IMG/VR virus record: IMGVR_UViG_3300047325_000097
Location: 1 to 49,744 of that record
DNA length: 49,744 bases
Direction: 5' to 3' (one strand)
Source of the DNA: a virus
The translations under genes and the position numbers were made by a program. Under the pieces are notes generated by a model. It was not told the DNA's origin. It did no database searches and saw only the letters and a program-made list of their open reading frames with translations. Of this stretch, positions 6,485-33,446 are shown piece after piece. The stretch's first letter is position 1, and the number at the start of each line of letters is the position of its first letter.

Positions 6485-8443
6485 TCATATTTCAACAATC
6501 TTTGTTAATTGAGCAATTCTTTTATCCCAATGATTTGGATTAATCAACTTGCATTCGTTAAGAGAATCTTTGTTTAATTGTAACCAATAGTTACGAGTTG
6601 ATTCACTTTCAAAAAACTTGGTTTGTTGTTGACCTTGATTATCTGACCAAACAGCGCCATAAGGAGTTGTATTTTGAATATGCTGCATTTGCGTAATAGT
6701 TGTCTTTGCCTCGTCTTGCGCGCGAAGTTCAGTAATTGCTTGCTTAATTAAACAAGCAATTGCACCTTGTAAACGTGCAACAAGTAGATCAACTTGATTG
6801 ATTTCTTGAACAACAATTTCGCCTTCAATACCATAACCAACTCCTAACGGATCAGTTATCATATTCTCATGAAGTTGTCTTTTATGAATACGCTTCAATT
6901 TATTTAAGTTTTCTACCAACTTGGCTCTTGTTGCTAATGCAGTTTCAAGAACAGCCGCATGTTTTTCAATACCTTCTTTTTGTTGATCATGGATCTTCCA
7001 CATTGTTGCATACGCACGACCGGTATCATCACTATATTGTTTTAGCAATTTCTTTTTAAGAGATGCAGGGAAACCCGGGGGAGTTGATTCGTTGATTTTC
7101 TTACTGGTTTTAATCCCAATTTTTGATTTTTCTTCTAAAGATTTAACTTTACCTGTGCCATGACATGTTTTGCATTTCTTGTCAGATTTCTTATTGGCAC
7201 ACGCATTGCATACGATCATATCCTCTTTTACCGATTCGTCAAATTTATTAAATCTAAGTTTTTCAATTTGAGTTTCAATTTTTGCAATTGCCTTCTTATA
7301 GCCAGCTGGCTTATCTTTCTCAAGTTCTTTAATCTTGACATTTAATAAAGCAATTTCGGCTTTTTGACTATTAGCTTTCTTTGCTTCTGCAAGACTGTTT
7401 CTTCTGTTTTCGAAACTTTCTTTCTTTGCACGACCCGTTGGATCATCACTTGGACCGGCAGATGCTTGTTGGCTATTAAAACCATCATCTTCTGGTGCCA
7501 TATTATCACCCTGGGACTGATCTTGTCCTTGTGCCATTTGATCATTTGGATCCGCGGCTGGAGGTGCTGCAGGACCAGGAGTGTCTAAAGGCGGTGTGCT
7601 TGCAAGATCACTTGCCGGTGCAGGAACACCGCCAGTACGTAATGAAGCTACTGCTGAATCAACAGTTGTTTTTGTTTGCTCTGCTGATTGTAAGAATGCT
7701 TCTAGTGCAGGTTTTACGGTGTCTTTAAAACCTTGTGCAGCTTCTTGACTAAATTGGTCACTCATTGTATCAACAAGACTCATTAAATCTTCTACTGATA
7801 TTTTTGCAATTTTTTCAGCAATATCTTGAATTCTCGAACTTACATCTTTTGCAGCAAGAATAGTTTCTGCTTGATCAAGCTCTTGATCTTCCATAACTAC
7901 TTTACGTAGTTTGATACGTGCATTTGCTGCTTCCATGGTCTTTGTTACTTTACTCTTTGTATTCATTTTATTATTTCCTCTACTTTCAGAGAAAGTATCT
8001 TTTGCGTGGGTTTCAAATGCTTTATATTCCATAAAGTGTTTAGCACTACTAATTAGCTCAGATGCTTTTGTTAATTTTAAAAACATCCAGCTATCTAATT
8101 TAATGCCCGGCTTTACGATTTTAAATAAAGCAGTGCTGCACTCGATAATTTTCATTAAATTTTCTTTTACATCAGTCTTCTTATCTGATACAGGTGCTGC
8201 CTTACCTTCATTTTCAAAATCTAAATGAGAATGAACTTTAGCTAAGAACGTTGCTGCTGTTTCAATCTTATCAACAATTGTTTTGTCTAAAGTTACATCA
8301 GGTCTTAGTTCTTTTACCATAATCATCGCATAACGTGTATTGCGATAAAGTTCACTATGTACCATTGCGATCTGATGATTATCAGTGTCAGACAACATAA
8401 ATTCGTTTATTTGTTTTTTAACCATTGTTGTTTGAACTCCCAT
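6485..8443 (-). CDS. Large modular phage protein, internal head protein candidate with zinc motif
   Basis: 652 residues; no enzyme fold recognised. ATG 8425 (MVKKQINEF) is an alternative start that overlaps the upstream stop as ATGGTTAA. Parts in order: helical 1-250; a Pro/Gln/Asp-rich linker about 265-340; a Lys-rich coiled coil about 345-400; a DnaJ-like zinc motif CNACANKKSDKKCKTCHGTG about 410-430; the motif PPGFPASLKKKLLKQYSDDT followed by AYATMWK at 455-485, which I recall in many T4-like phage proteins; and a helical C-terminus. Several (L/I)xE sites occur (INE at 11-13 among them). It may be a scaffold-core or injected internal protein; this is inference. Confidence 0.6.
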   Translation of the reverse strand: MGVQTTMVKKQINEFMLSDTDNHQIAMVHSELYRNTRYAMIMVKELRPDVTLDKTIVDKIETAATFLAKVHSHLDFENEGKAAPVSDKKTDVKENLMKIIECSTALFKIVKPGIKLDSWMFLKLTKASELISSAKHFMEYKAFETHAKDTFSESRGNNKMNTKSKVTKTMEAANARIKLRKVVMEDQELDQAETILAAKDVSSRIQDIAEKIAKISVEDLMSLVDTMSDQFSQEAAQGFKDTVKPALEAFLQSAEQTKTTVDSAVASLRTGGVPAPASDLASTPPLDTPGPAAPPAADPNDQMAQGQDQSQGDNMAPEDDGFNSQQASAGPSDDPTGRAKKESFENRRNSLAEAKKANSQKAEIALLNVKIKELEKDKPAGYKKAIAKIETQIEKLRFNKFDESVKEDMIVCNACANKKSDKKCKTCHGTGKVKSLEEKSKIGIKTSKKINESTPPGFPASLKKKLLKQYSDDTGRAYATMWKIHDQQKEGIEKHAAVLETALATRAKLVENLNKLKRIHKRQLHENMITDPLGVGYGIEGEIVVQEINQVDLLVARLQGAIACLIKQAITELRAQDEAKTTITQMQHIQNTTPYGAVWSDNQGQQQTKFFESESTRNYWLQLNKDSLNECKLINPNHWDKRIAQLTKIVEI

Positions 8444-9308
8444 TTACTGTCCATCCCTGGCTCTGCATTCCAGCTAATTGAGCGGCAGGTATTGTTTTTG
8501 TTGCTCCGGCTTTTGAAATTGATAACATACCGTTTGGTACAGGTGCCGTATTGTTTGGACCGGTCTGTGTTGTTGGTTTTGCAGTTTGACCACTTGTACC
8601 AGGCGCATTAGTACTGGGCGGCGGGTTTGGTTGAGTTGCTGCACCGGGTGATTGTGATGGATTTGAACCTATATTTGGTACCATATCTTCTGCAACGGCC
8701 ATGATTTTCTTACCAACTCTCTTTTGAAATAGTTTGATAACTTTCTTTTCAAGATCAGTTAAACTATTTGGACCAAAATCAGTTCCGATGTTTGTAAGCT
8801 TATGACCTACTTTGCTAATCATATTTAACTTAGATAATTCTTGGTCATCCTTACGATCTGGTCTTGCATGTTCACTATAATCAATCATTGAATGACCGAT
8901 CTTTTGCAATTTTTGTGCAACCGGATGTAATGATTCTTTTGCTTCTGTTAGTTGTTTAGCTCTTTTATTGATCATTGAAATAAATGCTTCATCGATCCTA
9001 TCATCATTAAATTGATAGCTTTCTTTAATCTTTTTCTTCGCTCTTTTTGGAGCAATTTCAATTAAATACCTAACTGCTTCGATAATAAGCATATTACGAG
9101 TGTATTTAGGGTCTTGCATCCAACTATTAAAACCGCTCTCTGCAATAATTTTAGAATTTAATTTATTGCAAGTTTCTTTGATTTTTTCTAATTGAGATAA
9201 ATCTTTTGATGTTAGGTATGATTCTGACAAGCCATACACATGCTTAAGAGTATGGACTAATTGATTGAATCTGTGTTGACCTGTTGACTTAACGTCATCA
9301 ATAAGCAT
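8418..9308 (-). CDS. Helical phage protein with Pro/Thr-rich C-terminal linker
   Basis: 296 residues, unknown function. Residues 1-210 are helical and basic; residues 215-260 are a Pro/Thr/Asn-rich low-complexity linker (NPSQSPGAATQPNPPPSTN); a short C-terminal segment contains SKAGATKTIPAAQLAGMQSQ. At about 103-125 the segment DDRIDEAFISMINKRAKQL matches DEIDEAFIQMVNNKVKHL of the protein at 27898, so the two share a module. Its stop overlaps the start of the 652-residue gene. A GATAAATA motif lies 27 nt upstream of the start. Confidence 0.6.
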   Translation of the reverse strand: MLIDDVKSTGQHRFNQLVHTLKHVYGLSESYLTSKDLSQLEKIKETCNKLNSKIIAESGFNSWMQDPKYTRNMLIIEAVRYLIEIAPKRAKKKIKESYQFNDDRIDEAFISMINKRAKQLTEAKESLHPVAQKLQKIGHSMIDYSEHARPDRKDDQELSKLNMISKVGHKLTNIGTDFGPNSLTDLEKKVIKLFQKRVGKKIMAVAEDMVPNIGSNPSQSPGAATQPNPPPSTNAPGTSGQTAKPTTQTGPNNTAPVPNGMLSISKAGATKTIPAAQLAGMQSQGWTVNGSSNNNG

Positions 9309-16178: not shown

Positions 16179-18014
16179 TTAGCGATTTATCAATGATTTC
16201 AAACTACTAAGATCACGTATTCCGGTACTAGGCGTTACTGTAGCTGCAACTGGTTTTGCTGTAGTTTCTTTAGCAGAAGAGTTTTTACGTCTTATACTAT
16301 CAAACACATTTTCTGCTGTATTTGGCAACATTGCTTCTCCGTTATCATCCAGATCAAACATTCTCAATGTACTACCGTCAAATCCTAAACTAATCTTGCT
16401 ACCAACACCACTACTACTACGAGTTTTTAAGAATTGAAACTGGTACTCGCCGCGTTCTTTCATTGCAGTACTTGCAAAGATACTAATAACGTTATCAGCA
16501 GTTTGTATTTTACTAATGCCGCCTGCAATCATACTATGATCATGTTCTTGTTCATTTACGGCTGAATTATGTGTTAATATTCCATTTGCATAAAACAATC
16601 TGTTACCAGTAACATTGATATCAATTGTATTCTGTTTACCCATATATTTAATTTCTACAATTTCATCATCTATCTCAAAAACATTAGACATTTCTCTATT
16701 ACAAAAAAGATCCAGAGGGAGTTTTCCCAAATTTATAGAACGCAGGCTATCACCAATTTTAAGTCCGGTATTAATAGTTTTTAGTCCTTCTTTTGTAGGA
16801 AACATATGATTTGCAGAACATATAATTTCTTTTCCAGATTTAGTTTTAATTTTGTACGAATTTTGCATTGTTATAGGCAATACTTCTTCTACCATAACCG
16901 GTCCTTCATTTGAAGAAATAAAATCACCTGTCTTAACATAACGTATTTCTTTTTCTACTCCATTGATCGCTATTTTAGTATCAAGAGAAAGGCATCTATT
17001 GAGCTGAGAGGCGGTAACGCACACCAAGTTACGTTCTACAGCAAGTCCTCTTAACTCTTCTGTTACAAACTTGCCAGTAATAAACAGATCACTTGTATCA
17101 ATTCGTTTATTATTTGGAAAAATAAGATCTAAATAGTCAACTACTAATACGTCAGGTCTATTCCCTGTTTCGATTTCATAATTTTTAAGATATACTTTAA
17201 GGTCATTACATCTACTGCCTTGAGGCATTTGCTTAATATGCAAATTACCACTCTTATAGCCAATTTGTTTAATCTTGATTTCAACTTCGTCTAACTTACG
17301 GAAAATATCAGTGGTTGCAATGCTACTCAACATACTATCTATTCTCATAGCAGTAAGTTCTTCACTTAACTCAAGTGTTAAGTAAACAACATTTAAACCT
17401 TGTTGAATCAGGTTTGCACTAATATTTTGTAGAACAAGACTTTTGCCTGCACCGGATGCACCGCAAAAGATGGATATCTCACCTCTATTCAAACCACCGT
17501 AAAGCTTTGCATCTAGTGCTTTCCAACCAGAACTTATTTGTCCGTTTCTTGTTTTTATTTTTTCCAATCTTGACCTCGGGTCAGCAAAGTAGTTTGTACC
17601 TAAATCACTTTGCAGTGATATAAGTATTGCTTCTTTTACTCGTTTTTCAACCTCCCCATAGTTACCTTTATCAATTAATTCTACCGCACTTAAAACAGCA
17701 TCAGCTAAAGCTCTATTCTTACAAAACTCTTCTATTTCGTCTAAAAAGCTGTCAACATGTTGAATTGTTATATTTTCAATTAAATTAAATTCGATACCAG
17801 ATTCTGCATTTATCTGTTCAACTTTTGGTAGAACTCTATATTCATCGGCATATTTTAATAAAAATCTTACTGCGGGCCTAAACTTGTTAACAAAATATTT
17901 GTCACTTAATATATTCTGACAACGAGAAAATACGTCTTCACTACTTAATAATATGTCAATTAGTAATTTTTGTTTTGCTTCATTATAATCTTTGCTTTCA
18001 AATTCTTTAGCCAT
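16179..18014 (-). CDS. 41: DnaB-family replicative helicase (T4 gp41 type) with mini-intein
   Basis: 611 residues, 468 after intein removal, the usual size of gp41. It unwinds the fork 5'-3' as a hexamer and works with the primase encoded just upstream. Walker A GASGAGKS lies at about 185-192; Walker B is PDVLVVDYLDLIFP at 288-301; the motif TASQLNR (334-340) is followed by an intein (341-483), after which SAVNEQEHDHS continues the helicase. C-extein residues FQFLKTRSSSGVGSK correspond to the DnaB arginine-finger region. AAGGA precedes ATG 18014, 2 nt after the primase stop, so the two are cotranscribed. Confidence 0.92.
   Translation of the reverse strand: MAKEFESKDYNEAKQKLLIDILLSSEDVFSRCQNILSDKYFVNKFRPAVRFLLKYADEYRVLPKVEQINAESGIEFNLIENITIQHVDSFLDEIEEFCKNRALADAVLSAVELIDKGNYGEVEKRVKEAILISLQSDLGTNYFADPRSRLEKIKTRNGQISSGWKALDAKLYGGLNRGEISIFCGASGAGKSLVLQNISANLIQQGLNVVYLTLELSEELTAMRIDSMLSSIATTDIFRKLDEVEIKIKQIGYKSGNLHIKQMPQGSRCNDLKVYLKNYEIETGNRPDVLVVDYLDLIFPNNKRIDTSDLFITGKFVTEELRGLAVERNLVCVTASQLNRCLSLDTKIAINGVEKEIRYVKTGDFISSNEGPVMVEEVLPITMQNSYKIKTKSGKEIICSANHMFPTKEGLKTINTGLKIGDSLRSINLGKLPLDLFCNREMSNVFEIDDEIVEIKYMGKQNTIDINVTGNRLFYANGILTHNSAVNEQEHDHSMIAGGISKIQTADNVISIFASTAMKERGEYQFQFLKTRSSSGVGSKISLGFDGSTLRMFDLDDNGEAMLPNTAENVFDSIRRKNSSAKETTAKPVAATVTPSTGIRDLSSLKSLINR
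16566..16994 (-). other. Mini-intein in the gp41 helicase
   Basis: 143 in-frame residues. They start with Cys in CLSLDTK (block A) and have block B with GKEIICSANHMF, block F QNTIDINVTGNRLFYANG and end ILTHN, followed by Ser as +1 nucleophile. All residues needed for splicing (Cys1, block B His, final His-Asn, Ser+1) are visible. There is no endonuclease domain between blocks B and F. It interrupts the conserved QLNR-SA motif at the ATPase site, a known type of intein site in DnaB proteins. Confidence 0.9.
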
Positions 18015-24445: not shown

Positions 24446-25126
24446 TTACACTCCTGCTGCCTGCAATGTTTGTTTGATAAATTTAACACCTTCAGGATTC
24501 TTATTAAATTTAATTCGCCAACTAGCATTTGGCGCCCACTTAGTTATCATACCAATTTGTTCAGGACTGCATCGTTCTAAAAAATCATTGGCACTGTTTA
24601 CATTATACAAAACCCAAGGAGATATTCTACCAGATTTCATCCATTGCATTGCTAAATTTGGATTTATTTTTCTAAAGAAATCATTCCAGGATTCGCCTGT
24701 TTGCATACTCCATTGTTGCATTAAGAGTATCATTCTTTCTAATGCATCCTCAGGTGCTTCAGTCTTTGTATAATCTCGAACATATTGCTCATATACGGTA
24801 TCATTACACCAAGAGTCTAGTGGTATATTTCCTTTTATTACATAATCAATAAATCTTTGCGGATTAATCACATTACAATCAATAATGTGTTTTCCAAATT
24901 TAACAAAACCTGAATAAAATGAACTATTTAAAAAATCCATAAAAGAACGTTTTGCTTTTGCACCCTTTTGATTGGTGCTAAGTTCATAAAATCTATTCCA
25001 GGCCAGAAATGCTATTCTGATTTCCGGATCATCCCTTCTATACCATCTACGTTTTTTTTCACACGAATGATTGATTAAGTTTTTTTCATTATGAAATGAT
25101 CTACTGCAAAATTCACACTGATTCAT
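24446..25126 (-). CDS. Zinc-finger phage protein of unknown function
   Basis: 226 residues. The N-terminal C2HC-type zinc finger has CEFCSRSFHNEKNLINHSC at 4-22, then EKKRRW. The rest is helical (YRRDDPEIRIAFLAWNRFYE, FMDFLNSSFYSGFVKFGKHI, MILLMQQWSMQTGESWNDFF, MKSGRISPWVLYN). I recall this protein as conserved in T4-like phages without a proven role. It lies upstream of the coiled-coil gene and overlaps the possible clamp-loader gene by 14 nt. Confidence 0.65.
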   Translation of the reverse strand: MNQCEFCSRSFHNEKNLINHSCEKKRRWYRRDDPEIRIAFLAWNRFYELSTNQKGAKAKRSFMDFLNSSFYSGFVKFGKHIIDCNVINPQRFIDYVIKGNIPLDSWCNDTVYEQYVRDYTKTEAPEDALERMILLMQQWSMQTGESWNDFFRKINPNLAMQWMKSGRISPWVLYNVNSANDFLERCSPEQIGMITKWAPNASWRIKFNKNPEGVKFIKQTLQAAGV

Positions 25127-25619
25127 TCTTTAAATATTTCTTAAATTCATCATTTAATGTTTTAACTCTACTATCACTTATACCAGAATCTAATAATAAC
25201 TGTTTAAACGACTGACTGTCAAATTGACTTTTCAAAATAGACAATTCGTCCTTATTCATTTCTGGATGTAGTTCAAGTAAAAAATTATCAATCTCTTCAA
25301 ATGAAGATTTACTACCTTTTTTTGGAATCCAGGGTCTGTATTGTTTTCTTTTTCCAGTACCAGTTAAACATAACAATAGGTGTTGTAAATCCGGAAACTT
25401 AGATAAGGACCAAAAATTTATATTAACCAATTCATTTACCGCTATTACTGCATATTCCTTTTGAGAGCTTTGGTCTGATAAACTACTCATAAATCTCATC
25501 AAAACAATCGGAGCATATAGCTTTTTATCTTCATCTGATAATGAATTATAGTAATTTCTATCGCCTATATCCAATGCATTGAAGGTTGCAGCTAAATCTA
25601 ATTTCTTCTTTTCTATCAT
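25113..25619 (-). CDS. Possible clamp-loader small subunit (gp62-like)
   Basis: 168 residues, helical. The spacing of an N-terminal helix pair, a VNELVNxxFWxLSKFPDLQHLL-type helix, then TGTGKRKQYRPWIPKKGS resembles T4 gp62, where a helical Pro/Phe/Met segment precedes PRGKRYGKW. Identity is low and judged by eye only. gp62 loads the sliding clamp with gp44; gp44 and gp45 are not in this window, so context is weak support. Confidence 0.4.
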   Translation of the reverse strand: MIEKKKLDLAATFNALDIGDRNYYNSLSDEDKKLYAPIVLMRFMSSLSDQSSQKEYAVIAVNELVNINFWSLSKFPDLQHLLLCLTGTGKRKQYRPWIPKKGSKSSFEEIDNFLLELHPEMNKDELSILKSQFDSQSFKQLLLDSGISDSRVKTLNDEFKKYLKNESV

Positions 25620-25626
25620 ATTGTGA

Positions 25627-26210
25627 TTATACTTTCTGCTTTATGTATTTTCTACATATGCCAGGAGGTTCAGATATATCAAATATATAATTTTTGAATC
25701 TAATTTTTTGTTTTATTTTAATAACTGCGTGATTGTCGGTTCCAAATTTGTCGTTTAGTTCCTTTAGCGACAAGGTTGAATGATATATTTCGATAACTTG
25801 TTCTTTTGTAAGTGGTTGTCGTTGAGTTTTCACTGGAATAACTGAGCCATGTTTCTTTCTGACATATCGAACGGTATTATCCACTATTCCGTATTTTTTG
25901 GCTAACTCCGCAACCGACCTGGTTGATTCACAGATATCCTTTATTATTTGAGGTGATAATTCGCCTGACCAATATACTCCCGCTGGACCCAAATCATTTG
26001 TAATATTTTTGTGTGTTCTTCTTTGTTTTATATTGACTATCATTGAATTTTTAACACCAAACAATTTTGCTAAATCTGATATATAACCTTCTGACAAATA
26101 CATATTAACGATCACCGATTTTAACAATTTAGGTTTTATTTTGTTTTTAACTTCGTCATTTAGTCCCGGACCTTCTTTTATAAATTGTGTTATATCCTTA
26201 TAATATTTTC
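25627..26210 (-). CDS. C-terminal part of a split homing endonuclease (HTH/NUMOD repeats)
   Basis: This frame is open from the slippery site at 26211 and continues the GIY-YIG protein in the -1 frame; its first ATG is at 26127. Three repeats of about 45-50 residues each carry an HTH-like helix pair ending in a basic I-K-Q-R segment: AKLFGVKNSMIVNIKQRRTH, AKKYGIVDNTVRYVRKKHG and NDKFGTDNHAVIKIKQKIRF. They match the C-terminal repeat of the upstream frame (KEKYDIGNDTIYGIKK). Such modules give DNA specificity to homing endonucleases. Alone it would be a DNA-binding protein without nuclease. Confidence 0.7.
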
Positions 26211-26702
26211 CTTTTTTATACCATAAATTGTATCATTTCCTATATCATATTTCTCTTTCAATTTTGCCGATGATAATGTAGAATGATACACTTCAATAAC
26301 TTGTTTCTCGGTTAACTTAGACGAACTATTTTTAACGCCTCTATTTGCCTCTCTGAGTTTTCGATAAGTTTCTTCTGTAAAAAATCGGCTGGTATCTCCA
26401 CCTATTTGACCAAATGTTAAATTTGTTAAAATGCCACCGTCTATCCGTCGACCATATTTCCTAATTTCAAATTCTTCTAAATCAAACGCCTCCTGTTCAC
26501 CCAGGTTTGACTGTAATATAGTAACTATTGGTTCATAGTTGTCTTTTCTAATTTCGATAATTTGATAAGATTTATCAGGATTTGATTTACAGAACGTTTC
26601 AGTGAGATGAGACCAAGCTCGGTTATCTTTCCCTTTACCAACATAAAAAGGTAAATTTGTTCTAGGATCTATCAGATGATAGACATAATAATGATTTGAC
26701 AT
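26190..26702 (-). CDS. GIY-YIG homing endonuclease, N-terminal part
   Basis: 170 residues. The nuclease domain begins YYVYHLIDPRTNLPFYVGKG (a GIY-YIG variant, YVYH-FYVG), then DNRAWSHL with the catalytic Arg and EAFDLEEFEIRKYG with the catalytic Glu helix. A linker FFTEETYRKLREANRGVKNS (NUMOD3-like) and one HTH repeat (KLTEKQVIEVYHSTLSSAKL) follow. The frame then stops 7 codons after an A AAA AAG heptamer, while the -1 frame continues with three more repeats. Mobile, free-standing homing genes like this are common in T4-like phages. Confidence 0.8.
   Translation of the reverse strand: MSNHYYVYHLIDPRTNLPFYVGKGKDNRAWSHLTETFCKSNPDKSYQIIEIRKDNYEPIVTILQSNLGEQEAFDLEEFEIRKYGRRIDGGILTNLTFGQIGGDTSRFFTEETYRKLREANRGVKNSSSKLTEKQVIEVYHSTLSSAKLKEKYDIGNDTIYGIKKENIIRI
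26211..26217 (-). promoter_or_regulatory. A AAA AAG slippery heptamer joining the two endonuclease frames
   Basis: On the minus strand the codons ATA AAA AAG contain A_AAA_AAG in the correct phase, the same heptamer as E. coli dnaX. A -1 shift gives IKK followed by GKYYKDIT and then the C-terminal frame. No strong internal Shine-Dalgarno is visible upstream, and no obvious downstream hairpin, so a simple indel in the A6 run remains possible. Confidence 0.5.
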
Positions 26703-26807: not shown

Positions 26808-27198
26808 ATGTGCCATCGGAAGACCTATTAAAAAAGTATTCATCGGGAATACCAGTTCATCTGGACAAGCTTTAGCCTGCTCAGTTTGGTTGCCATTCGA
26901 CACACAAGTAAGAACTGATGGATATTTTATTAAACAAACAGCAAATAGCATCTATCAAGCAATGTCAGTAACTAATCCAGCCGGAGTTGCACCTGGGTTG
27001 GTTACATTAGTGAATGGTCCCTTAACTCAAGCAGGTCAAGCCAATGTTACAGTACAGGGTTACAATAGTTCAACTGTTGAATATGCTCAAGTTATTTTTA
27101 ACCATACGGTTACTACTTTCTTAGGTAATAATTATACTTGGTATCCGACCGGTACTACATTAACTACACCTGGTAGTGCAGTTATACAAACCCTTTAA
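26808..27198 (+). CDS. Small phage structural-type protein with frameshift at its start
   Basis: AAGGAG and ATG at 26808 are well placed, but the ATG frame stops after 8 codons. The +1 frame reads through AIGRPIKKVFIGNTSSSGQA, RTDGYFIKQTANSIYQAMSV and ends GSAVIQTL at 27198. One extra T (26811) directly after ATG explains the mismatch; without it the protein would start M-A-I-G-R-P. No in-frame ATG, GTG or TTG occurs before the conserved-looking GRPIKKVF. Small beta-rich protein, probably virion-related given the promoter and terminator around it. Confidence 0.6.
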
Positions 27199-27311: not shown

Positions 27312-27887
27312 ATGAGTACCGAACATATGAGAAAACTGATTACTTTATTAGAAGGTAATGTACACGGAGCACCGGCTCATTTATTTGAATCAGATGAAAT
27401 TGATGCCGAATTCATCAATCATGTTAACAGTCATCCTGCTATTAAATCAGCTTCTGTAATTGATGAATCAGATGAAATTGATGCCGAATTCATCAATCAT
27501 GTTAACAGTCATCCTGCTGTTGGTGGAAAAGTATTAGATGAAGATGATGGCGATTCTAAATATTATCCAAGTAACATTGATCTTAGTCGTCGTAGCAGCA
27601 ATGATCATTTCAAAAAAGCAGCCTTTAACCATTTTCCAGCAGCAAATCATACTGTAGTTCCCGGAAGTGGTTCACCGACACTTGACCAAAATGGAAGACC
27701 TAGTATAACACCTAGCCATTATGAAAATGATAGTAACTCGGGCATTCAAATACACCCTCATTATGATAATCACAGACACTCTGTATCAGTTCATGGTATG
27801 CATGTTGGATCACATGATAATTTTGATGATGCAGTAAATGCATCAAATCACTTAGCTGCACATGTTCGCAGCAAACCAAGAGTTTAA
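27312..27887 (+). CDS. Head-protein candidate with MRKLITLLE leader and internal duplication
   Basis: 191 residues with AGGAG before ATG. The leader MSTEHMRKLITLLEGN is nearly identical to those at 27898 and 29540. Residues 26-43 and 52-69 are an exact protein repeat (ESDEIDAEFINHVNSHPA) encoded by a 54-nt direct repeat. The C-terminal part is His/Asn-rich (NHFPAANHTVVPGSGSPTLD, IHPHYDNHRHSVSVHGMH), with conserved-looking beta strands. Function unknown. Confidence 0.65.
   Translation: MSTEHMRKLITLLEGNVHGAPAHLFESDEIDAEFINHVNSHPAIKSASVIDESDEIDAEFINHVNSHPAVGGKVLDEDDGDSKYYPSNIDLSRRSSNDHFKKAAFNHFPAANHTVVPGSGSPTLDQNGRPSITPSHYENDSNSGIQIHPHYDNHRHSVSVHGMHVGSHDNFDDAVNASNHLAAHVRSKPRV
27387..27518 (+). 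repeat. 54-nt direct repeat inside the coding region
   Basis: Two identical 54-nt copies at 27387-27440 and 27465-27518 (period 78 nt) keep the reading frame and encode the repeated SDEIDAEFINHV segment. Perfect identity suggests a recent duplication. Confidence 0.9.
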
Positions 27888-27897
27888 GGAAATAATT

Positions 27898-28221
27898 ATG
27901 TCAACAGAAGATATTAGAAAAATTATTAATTTAATGGAAAGCGTTTCAACAAAACAATTGGTTGAATCAGATGAAATTGACGAAGCATTTATTCAAATGG
28001 TTAACAATAAGGTTAAACATTTGCTTGAATCTGCATACGAAGCTGCACCAAAACTAACTAAAGATTCTCCACCCGAAGCAAAGTTTCATCGTGGTATGAG
28101 AGAATGGCATAAGACAAAAGCGTCTGAAGCCAGAGCAAACGGTGATAAGAAGTTAGCTCAAATGCACAAAGATATGGTTCAACATCATCACGATGTTTAT
28201 AGAAAGGCTAACGAAGCTTAA
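27898..28221 (+). CDS. Head-protein candidate with MRKIINLME-type leader
   Basis: 107 residues from ATG 27898 (MSTEDIRKIINLMESV), chosen because AAGGA stands 7 nt before it. After the leader comes VESDEIDEAFIQMVNNKVKH, a module shared with 27312 and with the 296-residue protein at 8418. The remaining helical part is basic (FHRGMREWHKTKASEARANG). Several (L/I)xE-like sites follow one another. Function unknown. Confidence 0.65.
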   Translation: MSTEDIRKIINLMESVSTKQLVESDEIDEAFIQMVNNKVKHLLESAYEAAPKLTKDSPPEAKFHRGMREWHKTKASEARANGDKKLAQMHKDMVQHHHDVYRKANEA

Positions 28222-29504: not shown

Positions 29505-29527
29505 GAAGTTATTTAGTGAGCATATTT

Positions 29528-29535
29528 GATAAATA
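29528..29535 (+). promoter_or_regulatory. GATAAATA immediately before the 80-residue gene
   Basis: GATAAATA followed by TTTA and ATG at 29540; no Shine-Dalgarno. It is one of the leaderless-type contexts. Confidence 0.5.
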
Positions 29536-29539
29536 TTTA

Positions 29540-29782
29540 ATGAGTTCAGAACATATGCGAAAAATTATTACTCTTTTAGAACAAGCTAACAAGTCAATTG
29601 AATGTAAGTTCACAAACGAACTTGGTAACGAAATTGAAATATCAATAGAAGAGACAACTGAAGATGGTCAGCCAAGAGTTAAAATTACTCTTAGCGGACC
29701 AAAATCAGTTAGCGAAAACATCATCACAGTGCTAGAAGCAACGAAGATGTACTCTGCTCTCAAACAATATCTTAATAAATAA
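29540..29782 (+). CDS. Small protein with MRKIITLLE leader
   Basis: 80 residues from ATG 29540, preferred over an in-frame GTG at 29516 because the leader MSSEHMRKIITLLEQAN then matches the genes at 27312 and 27898. The body is a small alpha/beta domain (CKFTNELGNEIEISIEETTE, RVKITLSGPKSVSENIITVL). It overlaps the end of the uvsW gene by 11 nt. Head targeting is inferred from the leader. Confidence 0.65.
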   Translation: MSSEHMRKIITLLEQANKSIECKFTNELGNEIEISIEETTEDGQPRVKITLSGPKSVSENIITVLEATKMYSALKQYLNK

Positions 29783-31961: not shown

Positions 31962-33446
31962 TTATTCCTCGTCTAAATCTGCACCAATTACAGTCGGTGT
32001 CTTAAGTTTTTCTTTTGCTGAAAACTCATTCATAACTAAATCGAAGATACCATCTTCGTTACGATTCCATTCCTTACGAAAATACTTATGTTCTTTGCCA
32101 GCTAAGTCAGTATAAACATAACGATTTCCATCCTTAGTAATCAATTTTTTTGATTCAAGCATGTCAAACATTCCTGAATACGGATTCATTCCCGTGGAGA
32201 ATGGTATTTGAATTTGTATGTCTTCAAATGGTTTACTGTATCTTGTCTTAGTTATCTTGCATCCTGCTCGAATACCTAATACTTCAGATGTTTTATTACC
32301 GTCTTCATCTTCCTTGAGTTTCAGTTTCTTCATTGCAACAACAATACTCGCTGCATACACCGCACCGGCACCACCACTAGAAATTTGATCAGGATTATAC
32401 GGATCCATTGATGCATAACTATGATTGGTGCATACCATACCTACATTGTAGTTACCAAACATATTCACACAATTTCTGACCAATGCAGTTAATGCCTTTG
32501 GTTTTCTGCCTAAATCTCCCTTAAGATCACCTGCATCAAATTGATTTACATCAGTAGGAGTTAATAACATTCCAAGACTGTCAATAATGAAGAGAACTTT
32601 AGGTCTTTCACCTTCAGGTAATGATTTGTAATCATTCATAAATGTGCTAATTGTTTTAGCTACGTCGTCGATCATACTCATGCTTAGTTTCAGCATTTTG
32701 CCTTCCGAGGTATCTACACCTAATGCCTGTAACCAAGACTCATCGAGTGCATTTTCCGTGTCTATGATAACCGGATAGATTCCGGCTAACTGACAATTTC
32801 TTACTATATTGCCAGAACAAATATAACTTTTGCCACTATTGTGACTAGAAAATCTATCTCCCCAATATCTATGATTGGAATGATCAACGGTAAAATCATA
32901 ACAATATTCTGGTGTTATTTCGGTAACAAGTGTAACTTCGTCATTAATTGACTTTTCAGTTAGTAAACTATCACCAACAACTATTTGTCCGGCTGGTATC
33001 CATTGATCTTGATTTTGTAATAAATGATTTGTTGCACACCTAGTTGACAAACCTGATGCGGTTGATATCTCTACCATCGGCAAAACACCTTTATTAAACC
33101 AATGTGTTATTTTTTGAAATCCGTCAGGTGTATCAATTTCTATATCAAATTGATTCGAATCCCAAAGACTCTTTAATTCTTTTACGGTAACCTCTTTAAT
33201 TTCCATTAATTCTTTATTTTTGATACAAATTCTTACTTTAGCAGACTCGGGCAAACATCCCGATTCCCCAAAAAACATAGATACTTTACCTAGCGGAATA
33301 CCTTTTTTAAAATCTCCACTAATTAAGTAGTTCAATGTATAGTTTCCTGTAGAAACCCAATCAGTAGGATCATTGAATCCGACCGTTAATCCCTCAATAC
33401 TTTTTGTTAAACTTTTTCTAAATTTACTTAAATCTATCGGCCTCAT
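31962..33446 (-). CDS. uvsX: UvsX RecA-like recombinase with mini-intein in the Walker A loop
   Basis: 494 residues, 354 after intein removal, near T4 UvsX. Strand-exchange ATPase. The Walker A motif GESGSGKS is split by the intein after GESG (residue 63). Downstream: PVIIDTENALDESWL, VLFIIDSLGML (Walker B), NVGMVCTNHSYASM and ISSGGAGAVYAAS (loop 2-like region). C-terminal acidic end IGADLDEE. Without splicing the ATPase site cannot form. It lies between gene 32 and uvsY. Confidence 0.93.
   Translation of the reverse strand: MRPIDLSKFRKSLTKSIEGLTVGFNDPTDWVSTGNYTLNYLISGDFKKGIPLGKVSMFFGESGCLPESAKVRICIKNKELMEIKEVTVKELKSLWDSNQFDIEIDTPDGFQKITHWFNKGVLPMVEISTASGLSTRCATNHLLQNQDQWIPAGQIVVGDSLLTEKSINDEVTLVTEITPEYCYDFTVDHSNHRYWGDRFSSHNSGKSYICSGNIVRNCQLAGIYPVIIDTENALDESWLQALGVDTSEGKMLKLSMSMIDDVAKTISTFMNDYKSLPEGERPKVLFIIDSLGMLLTPTDVNQFDAGDLKGDLGRKPKALTALVRNCVNMFGNYNVGMVCTNHSYASMDPYNPDQISSGGAGAVYAASIVVAMKKLKLKEDEDGNKTSEVLGIRAGCKITKTRYSKPFEDIQIQIPFSTGMNPYSGMFDMLESKKLITKDGNRYVYTDLAGKEHKYFRKEWNRNEDGIFDLVMNEFSAKEKLKTPTVIGADLDEE
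32838..33257 (-). other. Mini-intein in UvsX
   Basis: 140 in-frame residues. Block A CLPESAKVRI starts with Cys; block B is GLSTRCATNHLLQ with the His; block F/G has EYCYDFTVDHSNHRYWGD and ends FSSHN, followed by Ser+1 of SGKS. No homing endonuclease domain is present. All expected splice-junction residues are visible. It sits exactly in the P-loop. Confidence 0.92.

Follow-up and report, generated by a model that had tools for sequence, protein, structure and literature searches.

A GIY-YIG homing endonuclease gene with a tail of HTH modules is probably broken by a recent one-base lesion at an A run

A minus-strand gene in the window (the whole stretch of 49,744 bases of an IMG/VR virus record that was analysed, 34% GC) appears to encode a free-standing GIY-YIG homing endonuclease whose DNA-binding tail consists of four HTH modules strung like beads, and it is split between two reading frames (ORF1 and ORF2, Table 1). 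The reading we favour, with a probability of roughly 0.6, is that this gene carries a recent and real one-base lesion. A net loss of one base at or just after an A run, probably by natural mutation, would have cut modules 2-4 off from the nuclease and HTH module 1. The main product would now be a truncated nuclease of 170 aa with poor target specificity, full-length protein would arise solely from a low rate of leaky -1 slippage on the A run, and the homing function would be decaying.

The gene order in the window (UvsX, UvsY, UvsW helicase, phrog_11279, "MGRP", phrog_11758, phrog_11058, a DnaE-like polymerase piece, primase and DnaB) agrees with that of Sinorhizobium phage Phosso, a 469-kb jumbo phage, and homologues of the flanking genes are also present in PA5oct-, GAP32- and RaK2-type jumbo phages. 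The split gene lies in the gap that separates the divergent MGRP and phrog_11758 genes, both core genes of a jumbo phage. In Phosso the syntenic position, with the MGRP gene on one side and the phrog_11758 gene region on the other, holds an HTH array without a nuclease, and in three other genomes (L003, L004 and L005) the site between the same two genes is empty; an empty or nuclease-less site is consistent with turnover there. Rfam and tRNA scans gave no match. Both flanking genes have peculiarities of their own. The conserved start position of the MGRP homologue (26815-26817) reads ATC, where relatives have ATG, with a well-spaced AAGGAG upstream, so that a start-codon loss beside the homing gene is possible from the sequence. 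The phrog_11758 homologue is shorter in its middle than the GAP32-type proteins by about 90 amino acids, a shortening shared with L003, L005 and Phosso. That this downstream gene lacks an SD was considered as proof of translational coupling to ORF2 and dropped, since many genes in the window have none.

Table 1. Features of the split endonuclease gene and its neighbours (positions in the window)
Feature	Position	Strand	Description	Basis or remark
ORF1	26190..26702	-	GIY-YIG nuclease domain, linker and most of HTH module 1; 170 aa	ATG start, upstream GAGGA as SD
HTH module 1	26188..26318	-	Spans the frame break; 44 residues if read with one -1 step	Switch-point scoring
A_AAA_AAG heptamer	26211..26217	-	In ORF1 phase; putative frame-break point, or break within ~4 codons after	Sequence, switch-point scoring
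ORF2	25627..26229	-	-1 frame; end of HTH 1 and HTH modules 2-4	No well-placed start codon with SD
HTH module 2	25999..26130	-		Homology, switch-point scoring, fold model
HTH module 3 (approximate)	25837..25962	-		Homology, fold model
HTH module 4 (approximate)	25684..25815	-		BLAST-similar to module 1; fold model
phrog_11758 gene	25113..25619	-	Conserved downstream phage gene; one flank of the homing-gene site	ATG 7 nt past ORF2 stop
"MGRP" protein homologue	26815..27198	+	Divergent neighbour; other flank of the homing-gene site	

The ORF1 protein matches Pfam LEM-3_GIY-YIG (PF22945) with an E value of 2.6e-9, a match that passes the curated cut-off, and phmmer matches its GIY-YIG domain to the solved GIY-YIG chains 9u75/9u7u. 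It keeps Y6, Y8, Y20, G22, G24, R28, H32, E76 and N94, the invariant GIY-YIG residues among eight aligned phage relatives. Pfam reports no NUMOD3 in the ORF1 linker, though the linker is visually similar to one. A domain with the conserved motifs, in an intergenic insertion whose site is empty in relatives, is what is expected of a free-standing GIY-YIG homing endonuclease. The other expected part, a C-terminal modular DNA-binding domain, is present by homology and fold model and is in frame only after a -1 step.

That part is carried by the -1 frame, which is open for about 201 codons, from about 26229-26232 to its stop at 25627; an open run of about 200 codons at 34% GC is much longer than chance would give in a non-coding frame. 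The three further HTH repeats that the earlier note had seen in this frame are borne out by homology and by an AlphaFold2 model of ORF2 with one relative, which contains three tri-helical units (mean pLDDT 54.5, helices about 60-80). Foldseek gave only non-significant matches for ORF2, the best being the tandem HTH of Tc3 transposase (E 0.11).

In the zero frame of ORF1 the junction reads GGT ATA AAA AAG GAA AAT ATT ATA AGG ATA TAA, and the stop comes seven codons after A_AAA_AAG, which is in the X_XXY_YYZ phase of a -1 slippery site; the earlier note was thus right that the nuclease with its one HTH ends soon after this heptamer. When every position was scored as a switch point against the HTH repeats of L002 (IMGVR_UViG_3300031669_000002), Phosso, Staphylococcus phage SEP1 and modules 2 and 4 of the window, the score was 60-62 for a -1 switch within codons 34-39 of module 1, 37 for the unshifted reading and 45 for the best other shift (+1). 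Because the -1 switches outscore both, one -1 break in the register, at the A run or just past it, is well supported, and with it the claim that the repeat register is kept across the junction; the scoring fits any point between the A run and a site about four codons beyond it equally well and does not fix the exact nucleotide.

Such a junction could be a programmed one, at which -1 frameshifting on A_AAA_AAG yields a short one-HTH and a long four-HTH nuclease. The heptamer is of the dnaX type and in phase, the HTH register is kept after the -1 step, the zero-frame stop follows seven codons on and the -1 frame is fully open. However, the phase, which the earlier note took to fit programming, says little, since an in-frame A run that loses one base can itself end up as an in-phase A_AAA_AAG; the phase would favour programming about threefold at most. 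The intact neighbour gene at 25113-25619 itself carries an in-phase A7-G run, so a run that one lost base would turn into the same heptamer is compatible with a functional gene in this phage. The heptamer is also tolerated in frame in three other genes, at chance frequency (3 observed against 3.2 expected after synonymous shuffling, in 48 other ORFs of the window with 12,428 codons); it is neither enriched nor avoided in the window's genes, in a count too small to reveal moderate avoidance.

The stimulators that accompany dnaX-type sites were not found either, neither a 3' stem-loop nor a well-spaced 5' SD-like element. No RNA structure is predicted 3' of the heptamer by folding without pseudoknots, and the downstream folds are less structured than shuffled sequence (z +0.64 for 63 nt and +1.53 for 103 nt). 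The closest SD-like element, AGGAA, is some 19-20 nt 5' of the heptamer, outside the spacing known for dnaX-type stimulation. Our literature search, which was open-access and not exhaustive, brought up no homing endonuclease with a programmed frameshift. Transcriptional slippage seems unlikely, the run being only 6 long.

Five relatives of the array are known from the searches. L002 has an HNH nuclease with three modules (290 aa, 34% identity to the array), Staphylococcus phage SEP1 (phrog_59) has an HNH nuclease with the array (351 aa, 31% identity), and the other three are arrays without a nuclease: Phosso gene 430 (158 aa), Staphylococcus CF5_0050 (169 aa) and a protein of Staphylococcus phage PT94 (166 aa). 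All five are distant (23-34% identity), and all five run through the homologous junction in a single open frame with no heptamer there, so that conservation of the site and of both frames, a mark of programmed frameshifting, is seen in 0 of 5. We consider programming a rather improbable account of this gene, and the more specific proposal that a programmed -1 shift sets how much promiscuous short nuclease is made relative to the site-specific four-HTH form slightly more doubtful still. Of the two readings that the earlier note offered, the A-run indel that breaks the gene thus gains, whereas the programmed frameshift that it preferred loses, with no stimulator and no relative carrying the heptamer. 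As a refutation, the earlier note had named reads or relatives with A5 or A7 runs that give a single open frame; one of these two lengths would not do so.

Wider searches added little. No DNA-level similarity to the gene was found in the phage collection. In IMG/VR, ORF1 has no close protein relative and ORF2 has one, the L002 HNH fusion; profile scans with array alignments returned the same locus, a bacterial genome scan found none, and a pattern scan of viral contigs that allowed any base count at the junction gave nothing. A GIY profile search gave 80 loci. The HTH array is absent from the inspected GIY-profile nucleases that match beyond the catalytic domain, and other tails are found on the aligned phage GIY-domain proteins and the inspected IMG/VR nucleases; because none carries this HTH array, these nucleases do not bear on the junction.

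Several other genes of the window have features worth recording. The UvsX gene (31962-33446, minus strand) has an in-frame insert of about 139 amino acids (32837-33255) in its P-loop (GESG / SGKS) that begins with Cys, ends with HN before a Ser and is not found in relatives; it is by these residues a predicted mini-intein without an endonuclease. The DnaB-like helicase gene (16179-18014, minus strand) has an in-frame insert of about 140 amino acids (16571-16992) after ASQLNR, with Cys first and THN-Ser last and a match to Pfam Intein_splicing (E 1.7e-5) that is below the curated cut-off, and this is a putative second mini-intein. One 1239-aa ORF of L112 (G002) is matched in the window by two overlapping minus-strand ORFs, 8418-9308 and 6485-8443, and the second of them has a strong SD of its own. 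Three small plus-strand genes (27312-27887, 27862-28221 and 29516-29782) have a similar N-terminus, MST/S-E-x-M/I-R-K-I/L-I-T/N-L-L/M-E, which is perhaps a shared leader or propeptide, and gene 27312-27887 repeats the segment DEIDAEFINHVNSHPA.

The break falls at a homopolymer in a metagenomic contig and ORF2 is otherwise undecayed, as would be expected if the missing base were an assembly error and the real gene were intact. The rest of the window argues against this. Protein alignments to relatives span 18,954 bp, and none of the 32 A/T runs of at least 6 that lie well inside this relative-aligned coding sequence coincides with a frame break, which puts the run-length error at about 9% per run at most (95%). 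Both predicted mini-inteins read in a single frame, and so, with one exception, do the conserved proteins that were aligned. These counts argue against pervasive indel error and are compatible with a single error here; on balance we regard an assembly error as unlikely.

It is also conceivable that each ORF is a gene in its own right, ORF1 for a short nuclease and ORF2 for a three-HTH DNA-binding protein, such as a repressor, that is translated independently. Stand-alone three-HTH proteins of 158-169 aa do exist, one of them at the syntenic site, and ORF2 read from TTG 26127 would have 166 aa and three modules. But the candidate starts (TTG 26127, GTG 26115 and ATG 26103) are all weak and without an SD, and a start at the sole early ATG would cut into helix 1 of module 2; moreover, ORF2 begins with the tail of module 1, so that HTH 1 is divided between the frames. 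Two genes therefore seem highly improbable. As an observation apart, the stand-alone proteins (L025 2162-2638, which is Phosso gene 430, L119 1492-2001 and L120 1294-1794) are kin of homing-endonuclease tails and may possibly be repressors or remnants of homing endonuclease genes.

A real, recent lesion thus remains our preferred reading. The anatomy of the gene, its register across the junction, the synteny of its site and the uninterrupted frames of the array relatives were observed and speak for it, as does the lack of initiation signals on ORF2. Against it, about 200 codons of ORF2 have as yet acquired no stop, which means that the break is very recent or that the frame is still used; A_AAA_AAG sits exactly where a shift restores the frame; and the searches found no close homologue, broken or unbroken. 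In E. coli this is the most shift-prone heptamer, and a single Lys tRNA reads both of its codons (PMC5009743); by analogy, leaky -1 rescue at the heptamer in the phage's host is possible.

The free-standing GIY-YIG endonucleases of T4-like phages (Seg; I-TevI type modularity, PMC2988022) likewise have an N-terminal GIY-YIG domain, a linker and HTH-type beads, and like this gene they lie in intergenic positions beside core genes. Here, in contrast, the GIY domain is of the LEM-3-like Pfam group, the tail has four HTH modules and the frame is broken in HTH 1. The HNH endonucleases of L002 and SEP1 have homologous HTH modules that are ordered and spaced alike, with HNH in place of GIY-YIG, three modules and no interruption, whereas the homologous arrays of Phosso, CF5 and PT94 have no nuclease and form a single intact ORF. 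The heptamer is in the same phase as at dnaX-type -1 sites, but no stimulators were found and the site is not conserved. Among the T5orf172/CapR modular homing endonucleases and repressors (PMC10448857), phage proteins with and without a nuclease are known to share shuffled DNA-binding beads in a comparable way, with Zn-finger modules there and HTH modules here.

Were the frameshift programmed, a homing endonuclease would have a notable translational switch of dose or specificity; read as gene decay, the case is routine. The nuclease-less mini-inteins predicted in UvsX and DnaB, together with the nuclease-less array of Phosso, would fit a turnover of homing elements in this phage group. The more lasting result is that one HTH-array module occurs alone or fused to HNH or GIY-YIG nucleases, and that one site in related jumbo phages is empty, holds the array alone or holds a nuclease fusion, which fits modular exchange and decay of homing genes.
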